Below, piece by piece: positions 4,423 through 37,468 of a stretch of DNA of 64,000 bases (the first letter of the stretch is position 1; the number at the start of each line of letters is the position of its first letter). The notes beneath the pieces were generated by a model. It worked only from the letters and a program-made list of their open reading frames with translations. It was not told where the DNA came from and searched no databases. The stretch is from a bacterium BMS3Abin06 (lineage in GTDB: Bacteria; Nitrospirota; Thermodesulfovibrionia; UBA6902), in contig BDSY01000019.1 in assembly GCA_002897895.1 (NCBI GenBank), positions 1 to 64,000 on the forward strand, in the 5' to 3' direction. The position numbers and the translations under genes are program-made.

Positions 4423-4598
4423 ACTGTCTCAAAAAAGGGGGTTTTATTCAAATTAAAGTAACCTGATAAATTCATTTTCCTTCGGAACCCTTTCACCCTA
4501 AATTGAAGGGTTTTGAAGGAAAATGAATGGATTAATCCAAAGATATTCGGGTTATTATAATTTGACTATTTCAGTCAAAATAATTCGCAATACAACAA
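4404..4598. mobile_element. MITE-like non-autonomous element overlapping the gmhA 3' end
   Basis: ends TTGTTGTTTTGC (4404-4415) and GCAATACAACAA (4587-4598) are inverted repeats, 11/12 match; internal long hairpin 4471-4527. Confidence 0.45.
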
Positions 4599-27526: not shown

Positions 27527-30526
27527 TCACTTAGTCCCCTCAGCCCTGATCTGCTCATAAACCTGCTTCGTAAGATGCTTCCCGACTATATTCTGAAAAT
27601 CTTTTTCATTCATGAATTTTGCAGTGATCTCTTCGTTCTGGTCCATGCGGTCAATAAATAATCCTTCAAGTGCCTTCAAGAACACGTAGCCGAAGTTTTC
27701 AAGGGTGTTTGCCTTTGCCGCCTGCTTTAATGCTGGATTGGCTACAGCATCCTCTTTTATCGAATCAAAAAATAACTGGTCTGCTGGTTTGAACTCTGTT
27801 CCGAACCGGTCATTGATAATGTCAATAAGTTGCGACAGTTCAATCTTTTCTCCGTGCTTAATGCCGGTTCCTGCTTCTACCGGCCCGGAAACCTCTCCTC
27901 CTTCACCCGGTGTATACACAATCGAACCCTCACTGACCTTCTGGATTCTGTAATATTTCAGCTCCACTTCATCGGCAAAATTATACACAGGCCCAGGGGT
28001 CCGCTTTGGAAGCTTTGTTAGTAAAAATCTTATGTAGGAGTACAGCTTCTCAAGGTCTGAATCCTGAAAGGGAATAATCTGTGAAAGAAAAGAATAGAGA
28101 CTTCTATAAGCAGCAAGAACCTTGCGAAACTCCTCCTGCTTTTCCTCATCAAGCTGTCTGAACCGGTTTACTGCCGGATCAATGCACGCATTCATCTTTG
28201 CGTGATCCGACGGTGTCTGCGCCCTGGCAGGTTTGTAAAAAACCCTGCTGAATTCCTCCACTTCTGTTTTGTAATAGACCTGATATCCGTCGAGACGCGC
28301 CTGCAGTTCATACAGGTGTCCGGCTTCCGCCCGCTCACCGACAGATGTTGTTTCATAATAGGGCTTGAAAGATTCATGGATTTCCTGTTGTTCATTAACG
28401 AAGTCCAGAACAAAGGTGTCTTCCTTGCCCGCATGTATCCGGTTTAAACGTGAAAGGGTCTGGACTGCCTGGATTCCGGACAGGCGCTTATCAACATACA
28501 TGGTATGAAGCAGCGGCTGGTCGAATCCGGTCTGGTACTTTTCGGCAACAAGCAGTATTTGATATTTGTCGGATGCAAATTTTTCAGGAAGTTCTTTTTC
28601 CTTTATGCCCTGGTTCATGCCGGTTTCAGTGTATTCCGGATCAGGGACATCGGGATCAATCACTGTTCCTGAAAAGGCAACCAGCGTCTTTATGTCACTG
28701 TATCCCTTCTCTCCAATGTATTTGTCAAAGGCCTGCTTATACCGGACAGCATGCAGCCTTGAGGATGTGACAACCAGGGCCTTCGCCCTTCCGCCGATCT
28801 TGTGTCTCGTGTGCTTCCTGAAGTGCTCAATCATTACTTCTGTTTTCTGTGAAATATTGTAGGGATGGAAGCTTAAAAATCTCGCAAGAGCTTTTGCAGC
28901 CTTTTTTTTGTCCACTTCCGGATCATCTTCTATGGATTTAATGATCCTGAAATAGGTCTTGTACGTTGTATAGTATTTGAGCACGTCATGGATGAACTTC
29001 TCCTCAATTGCCTGCCTCATGCTGTATAGATGGAATGGCCCCGGCTTTCCATCAGTTCCAGGATAACCGAATACCTCAAGGGTTTTATATTTCGGGGTTG
29101 CGGTAAATGCAAAGAAGCTGATGTTGGGCTGCCTGCCGCGCTTTGCCATGGTCTGGAGGATTTCTTCCTGATAGTCCGGTAATCCTTCTTCCTCAGCTTT
29201 TGCCTTAGCCTCCTCTTTTATTGCAGCCCCTGCAAGAACTCCCTTGAGTTCCGTAGCGCTCTCACCACCCTGTGAGCTATGGGCTTCATCGATGATTACA
29301 GCGTATTTTCTCGCAGGAAGTTCCCCTATCTTTTCGGTGACATAGGGGAATTTCTGCAAGGTAGTGATGACGATTGGGACACTTGTTGCAAGAGCCTGTG
29401 CAAGCTGGGTGGAGTCAATATCTATTTTCTGTACAACACCCTGTTTGTGCTCGAATTGATAAATTGTATTCTGTAATTGCTGGTCAAGAACGATCCTGTC
29501 GGTTATGACAATAATAGAGTCAAAGACCTTTTCGTCCTTATCGTTATAAAGGGTCGCCAGCCGGTGAGCAAGCCAGGCAATGGAGTTGCTCTTGCCGCTT
29601 CCTGCCGAGTGCTGGACAAGATAATTATGGCCGACACCCTTTTGACGGGCATCATCCACAATCTTTCTCACTGCATCAAGCTGGTGATAGCGGGGGAAGA
29701 TCATGGTCTCTTTTTTAATCCTCTTCCCGTCTATTTTCTTCTCTTTAATCTCAAGGTGAATAAATCGAGCAAGAATATCAAGAAAGCTGTCCCGCTGCCA
29801 GATGTATTCCCATAGGTAATACGTTTTGTATCCACCCGGATTTTCCGGATTTCCGGCGCCGAGGTTATTGCCAAGGTTAAACGGCAGGAAGTGCGTGGAT
29901 TTGCCTGCAAGTTTTGTCGTCATATATACTTCATCAGGATCAACAGCAAAGTGAACGAGCGTCCTTTTCCTGAACTGAAAGATCAGGTCTTTCGGGTCAC
30001 GGTCATGCCGGTACTGGTAAATGGCATTTTTCCAGGTCTGCCCGGTCATTGGGTTTTTGAGTTCAGCCGTTGCAACCGGGATGCCATTGAGACTCAGAAC
30101 AACATCAAGAGTGTTATTGTGTTTGTCGCTGTATTTGAGCTGCCGTGTCATAGTTAGGCGGTTTGCTTCGTATAATTTTTGAATGTCAGGATTGAGGCCG
30201 CTTGCCGGTGCAAAATAGGCAACCCTGAACTCTTTTCCAAAACACTTAAACCCATGCCGGAGGACTTTCAGGCATCCTTCATGCTCAGAATTAAGAGCCC
30301 TGCAAAGGTCGTCCAGAAGTGTGTCTTCGGCTTTGTCTTTCTGCAGGTTTTCCAGATACTCCCACTCTTTGGGCTGAGTCTCCTTGATGAAGTCAATAAG
30401 GATGGCTGGGTTAAGCGCGCGTGACGCATCATAAGTGCCGGGATTACCTTTGACGTATCCGCCCATTGTGAGGAGATTATCTTCTATGGCGGATTCAAAT
30501 GTCCCCTCTGTATGTATTCCGGGCAT
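27527..30526 (-). CDS. hsdR: type I restriction endonuclease subunit R
   Basis: NYLVQHSAGSGKSNSIAWLAHRL, VIIDEAHSSQGGESA, FFAFTATPK, QTGFDQPLLHTMYVDKRLSG. Confidence 0.96.
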   Translation of the reverse strand: MPGIHTEGTFESAIEDNLLTMGGYVKGNPGTYDASRALNPAILIDFIKETQPKEWEYLENLQKDKAEDTLLDDLCRALNSEHEGCLKVLRHGFKCFGKEFRVAYFAPASGLNPDIQKLYEANRLTMTRQLKYSDKHNNTLDVVLSLNGIPVATAELKNPMTGQTWKNAIYQYRHDRDPKDLIFQFRKRTLVHFAVDPDEVYMTTKLAGKSTHFLPFNLGNNLGAGNPENPGGYKTYYLWEYIWQRDSFLDILARFIHLEIKEKKIDGKRIKKETMIFPRYHQLDAVRKIVDDARQKGVGHNYLVQHSAGSGKSNSIAWLAHRLATLYNDKDEKVFDSIIVITDRIVLDQQLQNTIYQFEHKQGVVQKIDIDSTQLAQALATSVPIVITTLQKFPYVTEKIGELPARKYAVIIDEAHSSQGGESATELKGVLAGAAIKEEAKAKAEEEGLPDYQEEILQTMAKRGRQPNISFFAFTATPKYKTLEVFGYPGTDGKPGPFHLYSMRQAIEEKFIHDVLKYYTTYKTYFRIIKSIEDDPEVDKKKAAKALARFLSFHPYNISQKTEVMIEHFRKHTRHKIGGRAKALVVTSSRLHAVRYKQAFDKYIGEKGYSDIKTLVAFSGTVIDPDVPDPEYTETGMNQGIKEKELPEKFASDKYQILLVAEKYQTGFDQPLLHTMYVDKRLSGIQAVQTLSRLNRIHAGKEDTFVLDFVNEQQEIHESFKPYYETTSVGERAEAGHLYELQARLDGYQVYYKTEVEEFSRVFYKPARAQTPSDHAKMNACIDPAVNRFRQLDEEKQEEFRKVLAAYRSLYSFLSQIIPFQDSDLEKLYSYIRFLLTKLPKRTPGPVYNFADEVELKYYRIQKVSEGSIVYTPGEGGEVSGPVEAGTGIKHGEKIELSQLIDIINDRFGTEFKPADQLFFDSIKEDAVANPALKQAAKANTLENFGYVFLKALEGLFIDRMDQNEEITAKFMNEKDFQNIVGKHLTKQVYEQIRAEGTK

Positions 30527-31050
30527 TAGCTTGGTCTTCTCCAGTCATAGCTAACATTCAGCTCAGTGAGCACTAAGAAAATATCCTTATAGATTATGTT
30601 GAAATGCGAGCAAACATCTGGTAAAAGAATGCGATTCCTGGCCTGAGGACGCGGCTGCTCATTCGTTACGACAGTGCCGTTATGAGCCATCGCATATGCA
30701 ACAAGCCAGCCGTCTGCTTCAGTCGCGAATTTTGCCTTTGCATGATCATAATATTGCTGGTTGCGTTGTACCCACAGCATGACTTCTGTATAGGCGCTCA
30801 TAACGCCCTCGTCATCCGTGTCAATGAAAAATTCGGGCGGCAGTTTATTCTTTACCCATTGGACAAGGTCTTCGGTTTTGCGTCCGGCAAGCAGCTCGCC
30901 TTTAACCTTGTCAATACTGAAAATGTTTCCCTCACCATTATGGTAAATCAGACTGTCCCAGAAACCAGGGCAAATTGCGAATGCGTAGTAGCTGTTTTTC
31001 GCTGCTATAAATACGTCCGAGTCCAATAGGTAGGAGGTTTTTGGGCTCAT
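30526..31050 (-). CDS. DUF4411 family PIN-like putative toxin
   Basis: YLLDSDVFIAAKNSYYAFAICPGFWD..., KGELL, ADGWLVAYAMAHNGTVVTNE. Confidence 0.88.
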   Translation of the reverse strand: MSPKTSYLLDSDVFIAAKNSYYAFAICPGFWDSLIYHNGEGNIFSIDKVKGELLAGRKTEDLVQWVKNKLPPEFFIDTDDEGVMSAYTEVMLWVQRNQQYYDHAKAKFATEADGWLVAYAMAHNGTVVTNEQPRPQARNRILLPDVCSHFNIIYKDIFLVLTELNVSYDWRRPS

Positions 31051-32195
31051 GGAAGATCGACCCCCAGGCGATGCGCATATTCCTGGAAAGTCCCCCCATG
31101 TAGCCCGGTCAGATCATAAGCTTCCCTGAAACTCAGGCGTCCGCCCTTTGCGGCACGTATAACGTGCGTGGCAAACATTTCGCACACTCGTGTATTCTGG
31201 TTGTTGTAGAAATCGCCCTTACCCCCGGCAGGACGTTGCCTGTGTTCTTTTGCAATGTATTCCTTGTAGAATTCAAAAAAAGTATCCCGCTCCACAAGGC
31301 GGAGATCCATCGCACGACGACCTGCAACAATGGGGCTGACTTTAAACCTTCGGGCAGCTTTTTCGAAGCGAGTTTCTTCGTGCCTGACATCAGGCCAGTA
31401 TGCTTTCAGTTCCCGTGCCGGGACAAGGAATTCCGCTGCCGCCTGGTCACACCACGATTCGATGTTCTCCGATGGCTGAGACATCAATCCGGCATCCGTC
31501 AAGGCGCTTTTTCCAAGCCAGATATGCGCCAGTTCGTGTACCAGAGTGAACATCTGTGCAGACTTTGCATCAGCTCCATTGATGAAAATAAGGGGAGCAT
31601 ACTCATCACTGAGCGCAAAACCTCGAAACTCCTCAACGTTCAGTTTCCGATGCGTATTGTTTCCAACAATGCCATTGATGACCGCCATAATGCTTAAATG
31701 TTCAAAAGCACGGCGCAGCTCGCCGACTGCCTCCTGCCATGTGCGGACGGTCGAGGCCCAGCCATCGTCCAGGCCGGCCATGCGTCGCATTTCGCGTCCG
31801 ACGTCTTCCGGATCGTCCTTCAGGCGAGCGCTTCCCACAAAGTCCAGCGGCTCCGCCTCGCAGTCGATCAGCTCCTCGCGAAGCCAAGCCTGGCGCCTCT
31901 GCATCGCATAGATCGTATCCAGCAGATCGGGACTCGGGGTTCTGAATTTCCGGGTGCGAATAGTTCGAAGGTCCGGGATCGGAAGCTGCTCCTCAGGCGG
32001 TTCGGGCAGAAACAGATAGCCCACGGGTACCCGCACAGCCTTGGCGAACGCTTCAAGCTGCTTAAATGTGGGACTGACCTCACCTTGCTCCCATTGACCA
32101 ATTTTAGAAAACTTCTTATGCAGGTCATCGGCGCTCAGGCCAGCCCGATCCATTGCCCAACGGAACATATCCGGTTTGACGCTCACCCTCATCAT
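31047..32195 (-). CDS. XRE HTH + ImmA/IrrE metallopeptidase, putative antitoxin partner of DUF4411
   Basis: N-terminal HTH; LVHELAHIWLG (HExxH) and QAAAEFLVPARE. Confidence 0.93.
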   Translation of the reverse strand: MMRVSVKPDMFRWAMDRAGLSADDLHKKFSKIGQWEQGEVSPTFKQLEAFAKAVRVPVGYLFLPEPPEEQLPIPDLRTIRTRKFRTPSPDLLDTIYAMQRRQAWLREELIDCEAEPLDFVGSARLKDDPEDVGREMRRMAGLDDGWASTVRTWQEAVGELRRAFEHLSIMAVINGIVGNNTHRKLNVEEFRGFALSDEYAPLIFINGADAKSAQMFTLVHELAHIWLGKSALTDAGLMSQPSENIESWCDQAAAEFLVPARELKAYWPDVRHEETRFEKAARRFKVSPIVAGRRAMDLRLVERDTFFEFYKEYIAKEHRQRPAGGKGDFYNNQNTRVCEMFATHVIRAAKGGRLSFREAYDLTGLHGGTFQEYAHRLGVDLP

Positions 32196-33514
32196 GCTGT
32201 TTCCTCCCTCACGTCTATTTTACCAGTAACCGCGGCGGAAATCAGGGCGGAGCGGTATTCACGGAGTTTTTCAATGGACTTTTCAATTTTCTGCTGTAAT
32301 AAACTATATTCCCCGGTTTCCTTTATTATTGATTTCAAGATTTCACGTTGCTCTTGAGGCGGCGGATAAGGCAATCGAATCTCAAAGAATGCCTCTGGAT
32401 ATAGACGAAGTCTTGATGACCATACACCCTTTGATTGGCAAATTACCTCTGCAATGAATCTGCCCGTGCGAAACATGTAATCATAAAATCCAGGATCAAT
32501 ATCTGAAGTTCGGGGCCTATATACATTATAAGAGGGACTAACGATTCCGGGTTCGAAAGCAATCCCCATAGCACCCATCCATGCCCACATGGTATTAATC
32601 ACTAAATCACCCGGCTCACATTTTTTGTAACCTTCCAGTGACTCAGCCATAAACATATTCACATTCTTTTCTGATCTTTTTGTCACCCCTGTTATGTGTG
32701 AGACTGAGAGCAATTCTTCTTCACCGGTTGTAGAACGATCATTGATTTCTTTAAATAAAACCTTAGCCCTATAAATATCCCAATGTTCCGGTATTTCCCC
32801 CAGCCACTCAATCCCCGAATCCTTCATCCTAACATTGGGGTCGAGTCCTTTGGTAACGGCATGGCTTATGAGGGCGGAGCGTTTTTCCTGCAGGAGATCG
32901 ATCTGACGTTGTTTTTTGGCAATAAGGGAATCAATGCGTTCAGTTTCGCGGTCGAGGAAAGAGGCGATGGCGGTTTGTTCGTCCTTCGGAGGTAATAAAA
33001 ATAATGCATTATCAAGCCAGTACTTACCCAGCCCATATCGAGTAACACCGGTTGCTTCTACTTTAAATTGGTCATTCATTACAGAAGAACAAAATGCTCG
33101 GAATATATATTTCCCACAGGCCACCTTAATATTAGGCCTGATTTGAGCAAGATGATATCCGCAAAGTACTCCTTCAAAGTCTGTGTTAACATATGCAGGA
33201 ACAGCAATATCATCCCAAGACTCCGAATCCTTCGTAATAAGTATGTCCCCTTTTTTTAAAGCAAACTTATCAATTTCAGCCTTAGTGGCTGTTGCTTTCA
33301 TTAATTCAAGGTCATTATTGATAAAATCGTTATAGTAAACATCAACATAATTACAAAGAGACACTGGAATCTCTTCTTTTTTGGTATGCTTATCAACATT
33401 ACTGAACTTAATGGAAGCTATATACTTCAGCTTTTGAATCGTCCAGCCCTCTGGTATCTCCCCCAGCCATTCAACACCGGAATCTTTGTATCCGGGATAT
33501 CTAGGATATATCAT
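32192..33514 (-). CDS. hsdS: type I restriction specificity subunit S
   Basis: two TRDs introduced by WLGEIPEGW and WLGEIPEHWD; conserved helices EQTAIASFLDRETERIDSLIAKKQRQIDLLQEKRSALI. Confidence 0.95.
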   Translation of the reverse strand: MIYPRYPGYKDSGVEWLGEIPEGWTIQKLKYIASIKFSNVDKHTKKEEIPVSLCNYVDVYYNDFINNDLELMKATATKAEIDKFALKKGDILITKDSESWDDIAVPAYVNTDFEGVLCGYHLAQIRPNIKVACGKYIFRAFCSSVMNDQFKVEATGVTRYGLGKYWLDNALFLLPPKDEQTAIASFLDRETERIDSLIAKKQRQIDLLQEKRSALISHAVTKGLDPNVRMKDSGIEWLGEIPEHWDIYRAKVLFKEINDRSTTGEEELLSVSHITGVTKRSEKNVNMFMAESLEGYKKCEPGDLVINTMWAWMGAMGIAFEPGIVSPSYNVYRPRTSDIDPGFYDYMFRTGRFIAEVICQSKGVWSSRLRLYPEAFFEIRLPYPPPQEQREILKSIIKETGEYSLLQQKIEKSIEKLREYRSALISAAVTGKIDVREETA

Positions 33515-34416
33515 GCATTCCCCTTCCAGATGGATAGTTCATGCCATTTATCCGGAAACCCCATTACAGACGGATCAACCAGGCCAGTCTCGATGATAAG
33601 CCCCTTCAATCGCGCAGGCCATGTAGTGCCGGGACTCATGAGGGCAAGCAAATAGCAAAGCATCGCAAGTGTATTATAAATTTTCCGCTCTTTATGAGGA
33701 TTAAATGATTCTGATATAACAGCAGGGGAACGTGGAATGCGCATGGTGAAAGTCAAACGGCGATTCCAGAGACGGCTGTGATGTGCTACGAGATTTCGAA
33801 CATGTGTTAAATGGTGCATGAACGAGCCAAGCACTCTTTCATCGATCTTGTACACATCAGCGATTGCCTTGCGGTCTGCGTGATATTTAAGATTCTGATA
33901 CCATTTTGATAGCTGACCGAAAGACATGACTTCGCAAACAGCCCATATAGGTGGTAGTTCTGGTTCAGAATATTTTGACTTGTAGTGCTCAATAAATGTC
34001 TCCCTGCTTCGATTAAGTTCCTCCTGCAGGCTTGTAATACATTGCTGATACTTATCCGGCGATTTGAAGTGGTCCGGGTTAAGGTATGCGTGACTGCCGT
34101 ATTTATTCCCCAGCACATATGCAAATCGGGTTCTGAAAGATACCTCAATGCGCTCAATTGCTTCAAGTACAAGAAGACGGAATTTGCGGTCGAAGATATA
34201 TAATGTCAGCGCGTCCTCGAATTTTGTGTCTGCTTTGAATATATGATCTTCGTTCCCTGTGGATTCCTCAAAGGGCAGCCAATATGCCCGCAAACGGTAG
34301 TAATTTATATGGGAGAGATATCGGGCCGCTCGGGCACGGTCAGGAATTGAGATGCCGCGTGATATCAGGAGGTTAATCTGCTCGTCGATAGCAAGAGGGG
34401 GCTTAGTGTATTTCAT
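33511..34416 (-). CDS. Abi_2 (AbiD/AbiF-like) abortive-infection HEPN protein
   Basis: PPLAIDEQINLLISRGI; HEPN R-x4-H in VRNLVAHHSRLWNRRLTF (33778-33798). ATG at 34416; GTG alternative at 34419. Confidence 0.93.
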   Translation of the reverse strand: MKYTKPPLAIDEQINLLISRGISIPDRARAARYLSHINYYRLRAYWLPFEESTGNEDHIFKADTKFEDALTLYIFDRKFRLLVLEAIERIEVSFRTRFAYVLGNKYGSHAYLNPDHFKSPDKYQQCITSLQEELNRSRETFIEHYKSKYSEPELPPIWAVCEVMSFGQLSKWYQNLKYHADRKAIADVYKIDERVLGSFMHHLTHVRNLVAHHSRLWNRRLTFTMRIPRSPAVISESFNPHKERKIYNTLAMLCYLLALMSPGTTWPARLKGLIIETGLVDPSVMGFPDKWHELSIWKGNA

Positions 34417-34429
34417 CACTAAGCCCCCT
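34396..34429 (-). promoter_or_regulatory. translation-initiation hairpin of the Abi_2 gene: SD in 5' arm, AUG in loop
   Basis: minus strand AGGGGGCTTAGTG-ATGAAATA-CACTAAGCCCCCT, perfect 13-bp stem, 8-nt loop beginning at ATG. Confidence 0.75.
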
Positions 34430-34459
34430 TGAAAAAGTAACCCACCGGGGTGCGCTTTT

Positions 34460-34473
34460 CCGGCCGAAGCCGG
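34460..34473 (-). promoter_or_regulatory. cUUCGg tetraloop hairpin in Abi_2 leader
   Basis: minus strand CCGGC-TTCG-GCCGG. Confidence 0.6.
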
Positions 34474-34511
34474 CAGAGGCGAGGCGGGTGTTGTTCAGGT
34501 TATATATTCTA

Positions 34512-34540
34512 TATTTAATAAAACTACGTAATAATGTCAA
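34512..34540 (-). promoter_or_regulatory. candidate sigma70 promoter internal to the RM operon, upstream of Abi_2
   Basis: minus strand TTGACA (34540-34535), 17-nt spacer, TAAATA (34517-34512). Confidence 0.55.
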
Positions 34541-34584
34541 GTTGATAAACCCGTCGCGCAGTAGAAATCTGAATAAATGAAACC

Positions 34585-36597
34585 TCATTCCGTAACCTCC
34601 GATAGCATATCAGCAATCTCCCTCTCAATCTGCTTTAGATCGCCTTCAATCTCTTCCAAAGGACGTGGAGGCGTATATTTGTAAAAATACCGGTTGAAGT
34701 TGATCTCATAGCCTGTTTTTGTTTTACTCTCATCCACCCATGCATCAGGCACATGAGAAAGGACCTCACGCTTCATGTATTTATGGATATCTTCCTTGAG
34801 AGGTACATTTTCATAATCTCTCAATTCAGGATCAGGCTCAGGATTGCCTTTATTATCCTTACAAATATCCGCTGCTTCATCCCGCTCTGACAGCGCCATG
34901 AGAACGGCTTTAAAAAGCGCCGCTGGCACCGCAACATTAGCTTTTTTGAATGCGCTTTTCATAGCCTCACTGAATTTTGCCCGGTTCTTAACAACGCCCA
35001 GAGATTCAAGATTCTTTAGCGCCCCAACAATTGCCGCCTGCATCTCTTTCCCTTTCTCAATCTCCATCTGTGCAGCTTTCGAGTCCTTCCGTTTTTTACT
35101 TGTCGCCGGATTAATAAATGCCTTCGTCTCTTTAAGACGCTCCAGTCTCTCATCATTGATCGCGAAATTCAGTCTCAACGGCCTTTCTACTGTTATACGC
35201 CGGTACCCGAAATCCGCATTGTCAAAAATCCGGACGTATTCGCCTTTTTTAAAGTTGCCGTACAGGCGCGTAATGGCATCAATGTCTTCAGGGCTGATTT
35301 CATTTCTTTTGTTCCCGAGACTCTTCCGCATCTTTTTAAAAAACCCGGTTCCATTGATTAACTGTATCTTCCCGCGCCGGGACTTTCCCTTCCGGTTTGT
35401 AACCACAAATATATAGGTTAAAATGCCTGTGTTATAAAAGAGCTGGTCAGGAAGGGCGATGATCGCCTCAAGCCAGTCGTTTTCTATTATCCATTTTCTG
35501 ATTTCGCTCTCACCCGATCCCACGCTGCCGGTGAACAGGGGCGAGCCGTTGAAAACGATAGCGAGGCGGGTACCGCCGTCTTTTGAATCTTTCATCTTGC
35601 TGATCATATGCTGAAGGAACAGCAGGGAGCCGTCATTTATTCTCGGAAGCCCTGCGCCGAATCGTCCGCCATAGCCCTGCTCTTCGTGTTCCTTCCTGAT
35701 TAACTTTTCCTCAGGCTTCCACTCAACACCGAAAGGGGGATTGGCGAGTAAATAATCAAACTGATGAGAAGGAAACCGGTCGCCGGTGAAGCTGTCACCG
35801 AACTGGATATGATCAATATTCTGCCCTTTGATCATCATGTCGGAGCCGCATACAGCATAGGCCTGATCATTATAATCCTGTCCAAAAACTTCAAGGCTTC
35901 CGTCCGGATTCAGTTCCCGGAGATATTCCTCTGATATGGACAGCATCCCGCCTGTGCCGCAGGCCGGATCGTAGAGAGTCTTGACGATTCCTCTGGTTGT
36001 GAGAACATCGTTGTCCGGGGCAAAGATCAGATTGACCATGAGGCGGATAACCTCGCGCGGTGTAAAATGATCACCGGCCTCCTCATTGCTGGCTTCATTG
36101 AATCTTCTTATCAGCTCTTCAAAAATATATCCCATCTCAATATTTGAAACAACATCAGGATGGAGGTCTATCTCACAGAACTTTGAAACCAGCAGATAAA
36201 GACGGTCTGCCTTATCGAGTTTCACAATCTGTTCCTCAAATCCGAAGTGGTCGATAATATCGCGGGCACGGCTGGAAAAAGCCTTAATATAATGGGTCAG
36301 GTTGGCAGCGATGTTGTTTGGATCGCCTTTCAGTTTTTCAAAGGTAAACTTGCTTGTATTGTGAAAGGACTGTTTAGCAACCTTGTTGAGGATAAGCTCT
36401 ACGTTCTTGTACTTGCTTTCCTTCAGAGACTTAAGCTTTGCCAGAACTTTGTCTTTTGTAGGCTCCAGCACACAATCAAGCCGCCTGAGAACGGTCAGGG
36501 GCAGCATGACATCTTTGTATTGATTGGGACGGTATGGCCCCCGCAACAGGTCGGCTACCGACCAGATAAAACTGACCTTTCCGTTGAAATTATTCAA
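34585..36597 (-). CDS. hsdM: type I restriction DNA methyltransferase subunit M
   Basis: DPACGTGGMLSISEEYL and YLLANPPFGVEW motifs; GDHFTPREVIRLMV. Confidence 0.97.
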   Translation of the reverse strand: MNNFNGKVSFIWSVADLLRGPYRPNQYKDVMLPLTVLRRLDCVLEPTKDKVLAKLKSLKESKYKNVELILNKVAKQSFHNTSKFTFEKLKGDPNNIAANLTHYIKAFSSRARDIIDHFGFEEQIVKLDKADRLYLLVSKFCEIDLHPDVVSNIEMGYIFEELIRRFNEASNEEAGDHFTPREVIRLMVNLIFAPDNDVLTTRGIVKTLYDPACGTGGMLSISEEYLRELNPDGSLEVFGQDYNDQAYAVCGSDMMIKGQNIDHIQFGDSFTGDRFPSHQFDYLLANPPFGVEWKPEEKLIRKEHEEQGYGGRFGAGLPRINDGSLLFLQHMISKMKDSKDGGTRLAIVFNGSPLFTGSVGSGESEIRKWIIENDWLEAIIALPDQLFYNTGILTYIFVVTNRKGKSRRGKIQLINGTGFFKKMRKSLGNKRNEISPEDIDAITRLYGNFKKGEYVRIFDNADFGYRRITVERPLRLNFAINDERLERLKETKAFINPATSKKRKDSKAAQMEIEKGKEMQAAIVGALKNLESLGVVKNRAKFSEAMKSAFKKANVAVPAALFKAVLMALSERDEAADICKDNKGNPEPDPELRDYENVPLKEDIHKYMKREVLSHVPDAWVDESKTKTGYEINFNRYFYKYTPPRPLEEIEGDLKQIEREIADMLSEVTE

Positions 36598-37149: not shown

Positions 37150-37241
<92 letters not shown>

Positions 37242-37354: not shown

Positions 37355-37468
37355 CAGTCAGGCCATTGGGCCCTGTGCGACAGGGTGCTGTGAACTCCGC
37401 CAGGTCCGGAAGGAAGCAACGGTAAGCGGTTACTCTGGGTGCCGCAGGATTACCTGACGGCCTGGCTG
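37355..37468 (+). ncRNA. ffs: small (4.5S-like) signal recognition particle RNA
   Basis: CCAGGTCCGGAAGGAAGCAACGGTAAGC core with terminal stem CAGTCAGGCC/GGCCTGGCTG. Confidence 0.93.

Follow-up and report, generated by a model that had tools for sequence, protein, structure and literature searches.

The gap between the hsdM and Abi_2 genes of bacterium BMS3Abin06 (Nitrospirota) very probably combines a private promoter with a structured RNA of the abiF class (AbiFr/RCd22 type), which would serve as the RNA antitoxin of the adjacent AbiF HEPN RNase in a type III-like toxin–antitoxin module. The locus lies on the minus strand of the window, a 64,000-nt stretch (positions 1 to 64,000) of contig BDSY01000019.1 (assembly GCA_002897895.1), and its features are listed in Table 1. 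Membership of the gap RNA in the known abiF class is nearly certain. The antitoxin role of this particular copy, argued by analogy with characterised relatives, is highly likely.

Table 1. Features of the abiF locus and its host operon (window coordinates)
Feature	Position	Strand	Basis or remark
hsdM, type I methyltransferase	34585..36597	-	first operon gene
Private promoter: -35 TTGACA 34540-34535, N17, -10 TAAATA 34517-34512	34512..34540	-	sequence; predicted TSS ~34505
abiF-type small RNA, predicted ~75 nt; model match 34498-34431	34431..34505	-	covariance model R1
Helix 1: CCCGCC 34488-34483 with GGUGGG 34446-34441	34441..34488	-	two-sided changes at 4/6 pairs, 34 homologue RNAs
Helix 2: CGC 34481-34479 with GCG 34455-34453, conserved CUC and CACC strands at its borders	34453..34481	-	
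Apical hairpin CCGGC-UUCG-GCCGG, variable	34460..34473	-	insert of variable length
U-rich tract UUACUUUUU immediately 3' of helix 1, putative intrinsic termination site/RNA 3' end	34432..34440	-	
13-bp hairpin AGGGGGCUUAGUG-AUGAAAUA-CACUAAGCCCCCU over Shine–Dalgarno (AGGGGG, 34429-34424) and start codon(s)	34396..34429	-	
abiF/Abi_2, HEPN RNase toxin, 301 aa, motif R207-N-L-V-A-H212	33511..34416	-	Pfam, PADLOC, PDB, AlphaFold
hsdS, specificity subunit	32192..33514	-	4-nt overlap with abiF
M78/IrrE-like gene	31047-32195	-	remainder of operon
DUF4411 gene	30526-31050	-	remainder of operon
hsdR	27527-30526	-	remainder of operon; M78/DUF4411/hsdR block spans 27527..32195

The gap extends for 165–168 nt from the hsdM stop codon (34585) to the Abi_2 start codon (GTG 34419 or ATG 34416). 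The genes downstream of the Abi_2 start overlap one another by 1–4 nt, and the operon is ordered hsdM–abiF–hsdS–M78–DUF4411–hsdR. The earlier note had remarked on a gap of about 165 nt among tightly packed genes and had placed in it a TTGACA-N17-TAAATA promoter, a CCGGC-UUCG-GCCGG hairpin inside an outer ACCC...GGGT pairing and an RNA segment ending just before a start-codon hairpin. All of these elements were found on the minus strand where the note had put them.

The six-gene order of the window is identical at locus L088 of genome G346. Besides the window, type I restriction operons host at least 14 of 54 homologue loci, a lower bound because the flanks were short and the window's own Hsd proteins were used for detection. 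Approximately ten of the restriction-linked loci are ordered hsdM–RNA–abi, and others hsdM–hsdS–abi–hsdR, with plasmid annotation as part of the evidence. The embedding of Abi2/AbiF/AbiD genes in restriction-modification operons was already listed by Anantharaman et al. 2013 (PMC3710099), and a search of the available literature found no paper that describes an Abi_2 gene flanked by hsdM and hsdS and accompanied by an RNA. The M78/IrrE-like and DUF4411 pair (30526-32195), located between hsdS and hsdR, resembles a second toxin–antitoxin module, and its order is kept in G346. Beside the restriction operon, the window contains a tRNA gene (37150-37237, +) and a bacterial small SRP RNA (37364-37462, +). 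A tRNA placed beside defence genes in this way may indicate an integration site.

In the gap RNA, the outer pairing including a flanking pair joins ACCCGCC (34489-34483) to GGUGGGU (34446-34440). Helix 2 changes jointly between RNA subtypes, from CGC/GCG to AGG/CCU or AGC/GCU. In the close clade, all five pairs of the apical hairpin are kept in 5/5 sequences, with two-sided changes at two pairs. A UUACUUUUUU-like tract after the stem is conserved among homologues; a strict terminator scan did not call the U-tract at 34432..34440. The RNA segment folds with a z-score of -1.72 (8 of 200 shuffles were equally good), and the promoter weight-matrix score is equalled by 4 of 100 shuffles. By themselves, the signals in the gap are only modestly unusual.

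The RNA was identified through Rfam and through a covariance model made from homologues. At the gathering threshold, Rfam yielded no match in the gap or in the homologue loci, and none of 17 whole genomes (the genome of the window and 16 with Abi_2 homologues) contained a match at the RF03085 cut-off. A permissive search aligned RF03085 (abiF) with 34488–34440 at 20.1 bits (cut-off 37), and intermediate homologue RNAs scored 29-37 bits with the same model. Other permissive Rfam matches in the gap (RNAI, a ribozyme and microRNAs) had low scores without homologue support and were rejected.

Abi_2 homologues were fetched by protein from GTDB genomes, the window's phylum, the class of homologue genome G419 and plasmids, and their upstream DNA was then read. 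Nearly all of them are preceded by AACAACA-CCCnCC-A-[CGC]CTC...[GCG]CACC-nn-GGnGGG-TTACTTTTT or by a sister form with an AGG...CCT or AGC...GCT inner helix. Covariance model R1 is based on 34 of the RNAs that precede Abi_2 homologues, with the window excluded. In the 64-kb window, R1 gives a single match, at 34498–34431 on the minus strand (63.2 bits, E=2e-11), and in a search of the whole genome the window element has an E value of 8.9e-10. R1 also recovers 16 held-out homologue RNAs. The model spans the Rfam-like (AGC..GCUCAAA) and GCGCACC subtypes, and the window RNA fits it. A covariance search across Abi_2 homologues had been proposed in the earlier note, which suggested that the gap could encode an RNA of the AbiF-associated type or a cis-regulatory leader; the search revealed conserved structure, and a matching RNA is present in the gap.

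By Rfam's own rule, the gap RNA lies outside RF03085 because its 20.1 bits fall below the cut-off of 37; judged by structure, covariation and position, it is of the same class. Both RNAs have an outer CCCGCC/GGCGGGU helix, an inner 3-bp helix and 5' CUCU and 3' CA.. strands, and both are located immediately upstream of Abi_2 genes on the same strand. The window RNA differs from RF03085 in its long apical hairpin and in a GCGCACC 3' strand that replaces GCUCAAAUC. A GCGCACC-type subfamily, which scores below the Rfam threshold and accompanies Abi_2 genes of Nitrospirota MAGs, Proteobacteria and Bacteroidota, is added here to the abiF RNA class. The class itself is known; the new elements are this subtype, missed by the public model, and a start hairpin of unusual strength that is confined to the clade.

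The structure of the RNA is conserved through compensating changes. In alignment A2, two-sided changes occur at 6/9 pairs, and 31 two-sided cells were counted versus 6.2 in shuffles. Pairing in A2 reaches 99%, compared with <50% for slid structures, a percentage that is inflated and partly obtained by construction because the stems were selected with six pairs; the held-out matches are unaffected by this choice. An R1 RNA lies directly upstream of the Abi_2 gene in 49 of 53 homologue loci, which were selected by protein alone, and is absent at four (L016, L063, L064 and L066). Among 396 genomes of the phylum, six carry Abi_2, each with R1 directly upstream (hypergeometric P=5e-12), and three R1 matches without Abi_2 were observed (G073, G016 and contig C73 of the window's own genome).

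A GC stem and a U-tract past the end of hsdM, with a modest folding z-score, could also be an ordinary hsdM intergenic terminator followed by an internal promoter, with a chance likeness to abiF RNA. The comparative sequence evidence is decisive in pointing to a gap RNA beyond chance, because R1, an independent model made without the window, matches with E=2e-11 and because promoter spacing and structure are conserved in homologues. Moreover, the same element is found ahead of abi genes that have no upstream hsdM. A chance terminator is very unlikely on these data, with a probability that is close to negligible.

The promoter occupies a conserved position relative to the RNA. A strict promoter scan of the gap made no call because TAAATA lacks the final T. 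The best -10 element ends 12-14 nt ahead of the RNA stem at 37 of the 48 homologue loci. In the window clade (the window, L002, L003, L021 and L022), this distance is 23-24 nt, an upstream shift of ~10 nt relative to most homologues.

The product of the Abi_2 gene is, by sequence and predicted fold, an AbiF with an intact HEPN motif. The protein matches Pfam Abi_2 (8.1e-62) and PADLOC AbiD (3.3e-79), and its top PDB sequence match is 8vz6 (PbAbiF–ncRNA; E=1.6e-49, 32% identity). The AlphaFold2 model (pLDDT 87.9) has 8vz6 as its sole significant fold match (TM 0.87). Abi_2 is the only domain in the 301-aa protein, and an ABC ATPase module is absent. R207 and H212 of the R-N-L-V-A-H motif (HEPN R-N-xxx-H) are invariant in the homologue alignment and align with R210 and H215 of PbAbiF, whose double mutant is inactive according to PMC12373285, which cites the Cell 2025 work. 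The likeness to PbAbiF-AbiFr (PDB 8VZ6), including the aligned catalytic pair, concerns the protein. RNase activity and toxicity of the window AbiF would be expected from its relatives. A search of viral contigs found no relative of the window protein.

The start-codon hairpin is the strongest single structure of the gap (-25.2 kcal/mol, z=-5.92) and the only perfect hairpin of at least 11 bp (loop 3-12) in the 64 kb. The U-rich tract of the RNA ends at 34432, and the Shine–Dalgarno sequence AGGGGG begins at 34429. Among the homologues, L002 and L022 have a strong form of the hairpin and L003 and L021 a weaker one; the others lack it. Two-sided changes at two pairs within the clade (five sequences) are suggestive of hairpin conservation. 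By analogy with lactococcal AbiD1, the hairpin is probably a translational lock. In the lactococcal abiD1 leader, an RBS-sequestering stem-loop likewise follows directly after a terminator poly-U, a position that is predicted for the window, and abiD1 translation is activated by phage Orf1 (PMC2661086). The AbiD1 stem-loop has a stability of -9.1 kcal/mol (PMC2661086) versus -25 kcal/mol in the window, where the start codon is also covered.

Decay is observed in some homologues: the abi gene of G028 is interrupted by a stop, and G073 keeps the RNA but has lost the abi frame, with a Fic gene in its place. The RNA and toxin of the window could likewise be relics of a degenerate or inactive module in the restriction operon. 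However, the window abi gene encodes a full-length protein that retains every motif residue, the score of its RNA is on par with those of intact homologues, and the start hairpin is maintained with two-sided changes. A relic is highly improbable.

The closest characterised system is RCd22-AbiFCd of Clostridioides difficile phi027 (PMC12373285). The RNA of this system, RCd22, comes with a promoter and a terminator of its own, yields a short terminated RNA and a readthrough mRNA into abiF, binds AbiF and neutralises it in cis and in trans; R202 and H207 of the AbiFCd R-phi-xxx-H motif are required for toxicity (PMC12373285). The window resembles this system in its promoter-like pair, a predicted short terminated RNA with predicted readthrough into abiF, and an R-phi-xxx-H toxin. 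RCd22, which resides in a prophage lysis module, has a pair of abiF motifs and a terminator separate from them (PMC12373285), whereas the window has one motif with its own stem ahead of the U-tract, a type I restriction operon as host and a start-codon hairpin. The layout at the locus would be type III-like: the RNA lies directly upstream of the toxin gene, with a promoter-like pair and a U-tract that strict scans for promoters and terminators did not call. The link of AbiF/Abi_2 HEPN proteins to RNA antitoxins and to Cas13 ancestry, which the earlier note had mentioned, is correct according to PMC12373285 and PMC12165695, and according to Zilberzwige-Tal et al. (Cell 2025) as reported in PMC12373285 and PMC12737573.

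The element could instead function solely as a cis leader, with the RNA attenuating transcription, the second hairpin switching abiF translation, and no antitoxin role of the short RNA in trans. It is indeed placed in the 5' leader, where the U-tract abuts the Shine–Dalgarno sequence and the RBS-sequestering hairpin comes next, and AbiD1 translation is regulated via a similar leader (PMC2661086). However, the most conserved positions extend beyond the terminator stem and include unpaired strands and the small internal helix, as expected for protein binding. Moreover, those abiF RNAs that have been characterised bind AbiF and neutralise it (PMC12373285, PMC12737573). A leader acting only in cis is improbable. 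The antitoxin RNA and a cis leader are compatible, because RCd22 combines the two roles, being a terminated leader that also acts in trans as an antitoxin.

In the preferred reading as an antitoxin RNA, transcription from TTGACA-TAAATA would mostly halt at the GC stem and U-tract that belong to the RNA itself. The ~75-nt RNA would bind the AbiF dimer and block its RNase site, and toxin mRNA would arise from readthrough or from transcription starting at the hsdM promoter. In the window clade, AbiF translation would also be held low until the hairpin that sequesters the Shine–Dalgarno sequence and start codon is opened. If a phage caused the short RNA to be lost, or if the lock were relieved, AbiF would be free to cut RNA and arrest the cell. 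Termination, binding, inhibition and toxicity at the window locus are inferred from the relatives.

The trigger and any coupling to restriction are speculative. PrrC-EcoprrI is similar to the window in having a HEPN RNase gene within a type I restriction operon as a possible second defence line (PMC3710099, PMC9296519). PrrC, a HEPN anticodon nuclease, includes an ABC ATPase part, and its restriction enzyme keeps it inactive (PMC3710099, PMC9296519), whereas the window AbiF has a predicted RNA partner and a predicted promoter of its own. AbiF arrest might serve as a backup to the restriction system of the shared operon, although such coupling is doubtful. It is likewise rather unlikely that the AbiF–RNA pair belongs functionally to the restriction system, as an RNA-restrained counterpart of PrrC that fires as a second-line guard when restriction is blocked, with an antitoxin RNA under its private promoter, a lock opened by a phage signal and a toxin slot swapped (Fic) in some operons while the RNA stays. 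The predicted antitoxin RNA, the U-tract and the RBS-locking hairpin are packed into 110 nt within the type I restriction operon, a compact natural construct that is suited to asking what triggers chromosomal AbiF. Adding the GCGCACC subfamily to the class also helps to chart the RNA partners of toxins thought to be ancestral to Cas13.

Several abiF-like RNAs were observed outside the standard arrangement. The genome of the window contains a second one on contig C73 (G000:C73:26912-26852, minus strand; locus L085, 6853-6913), which scores 38.9 bits with R1 and 32.8 bits with RF03085. It has a -10-like TATACT upstream and no Abi_2 gene, and it is followed by a short frame that by eye resembles a DUF1016 remnant (no Pfam match) and by a 1190-aa ORF without a Pfam match. 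Locus L131 (G016:C16) carries two promoter-plus-RNA copies (198-301 and 2510-2613; 90% identical), one preceding a TcmP-DUF5131 pair and the other preceding small ORFs that resemble a toxin–antitoxin pair; further partial copies of this unit occur in G002. The L131 copies may be orphan antitoxin RNAs or a dispersed repeat. A general placement of abiF-like RNAs ahead of TcmP genes was rejected, with a significant RNA match in 1 of 30 TcmP loci, the starting one in G016. In L086 (G073:C16, 5025-5079), ordered hsdM–abiF RNA–Fic–hsdS, the RNA is well kept (55.6 bits) and the abi frame is missing; the first abi codons seem recognisable in comparison with G097, and the remainder is not significant.

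Paired RNAs were also found. L059 has two abiF-type RNAs (2456-2510 and 2609-2671) in tandem ahead of abi, similar to the two motifs of RCd22, and L006 has two at 2908-2966 and 4448-4506. Ca. Magnetaquicoccus contains a second AbiF locus, L093 (5886-5828), with an RNA of the GCGCACC subtype, and the RNA of its first locus, L007, is of the CUCAAA subtype; these are possibly two orthogonal RNA–toxin pairs in one cell.
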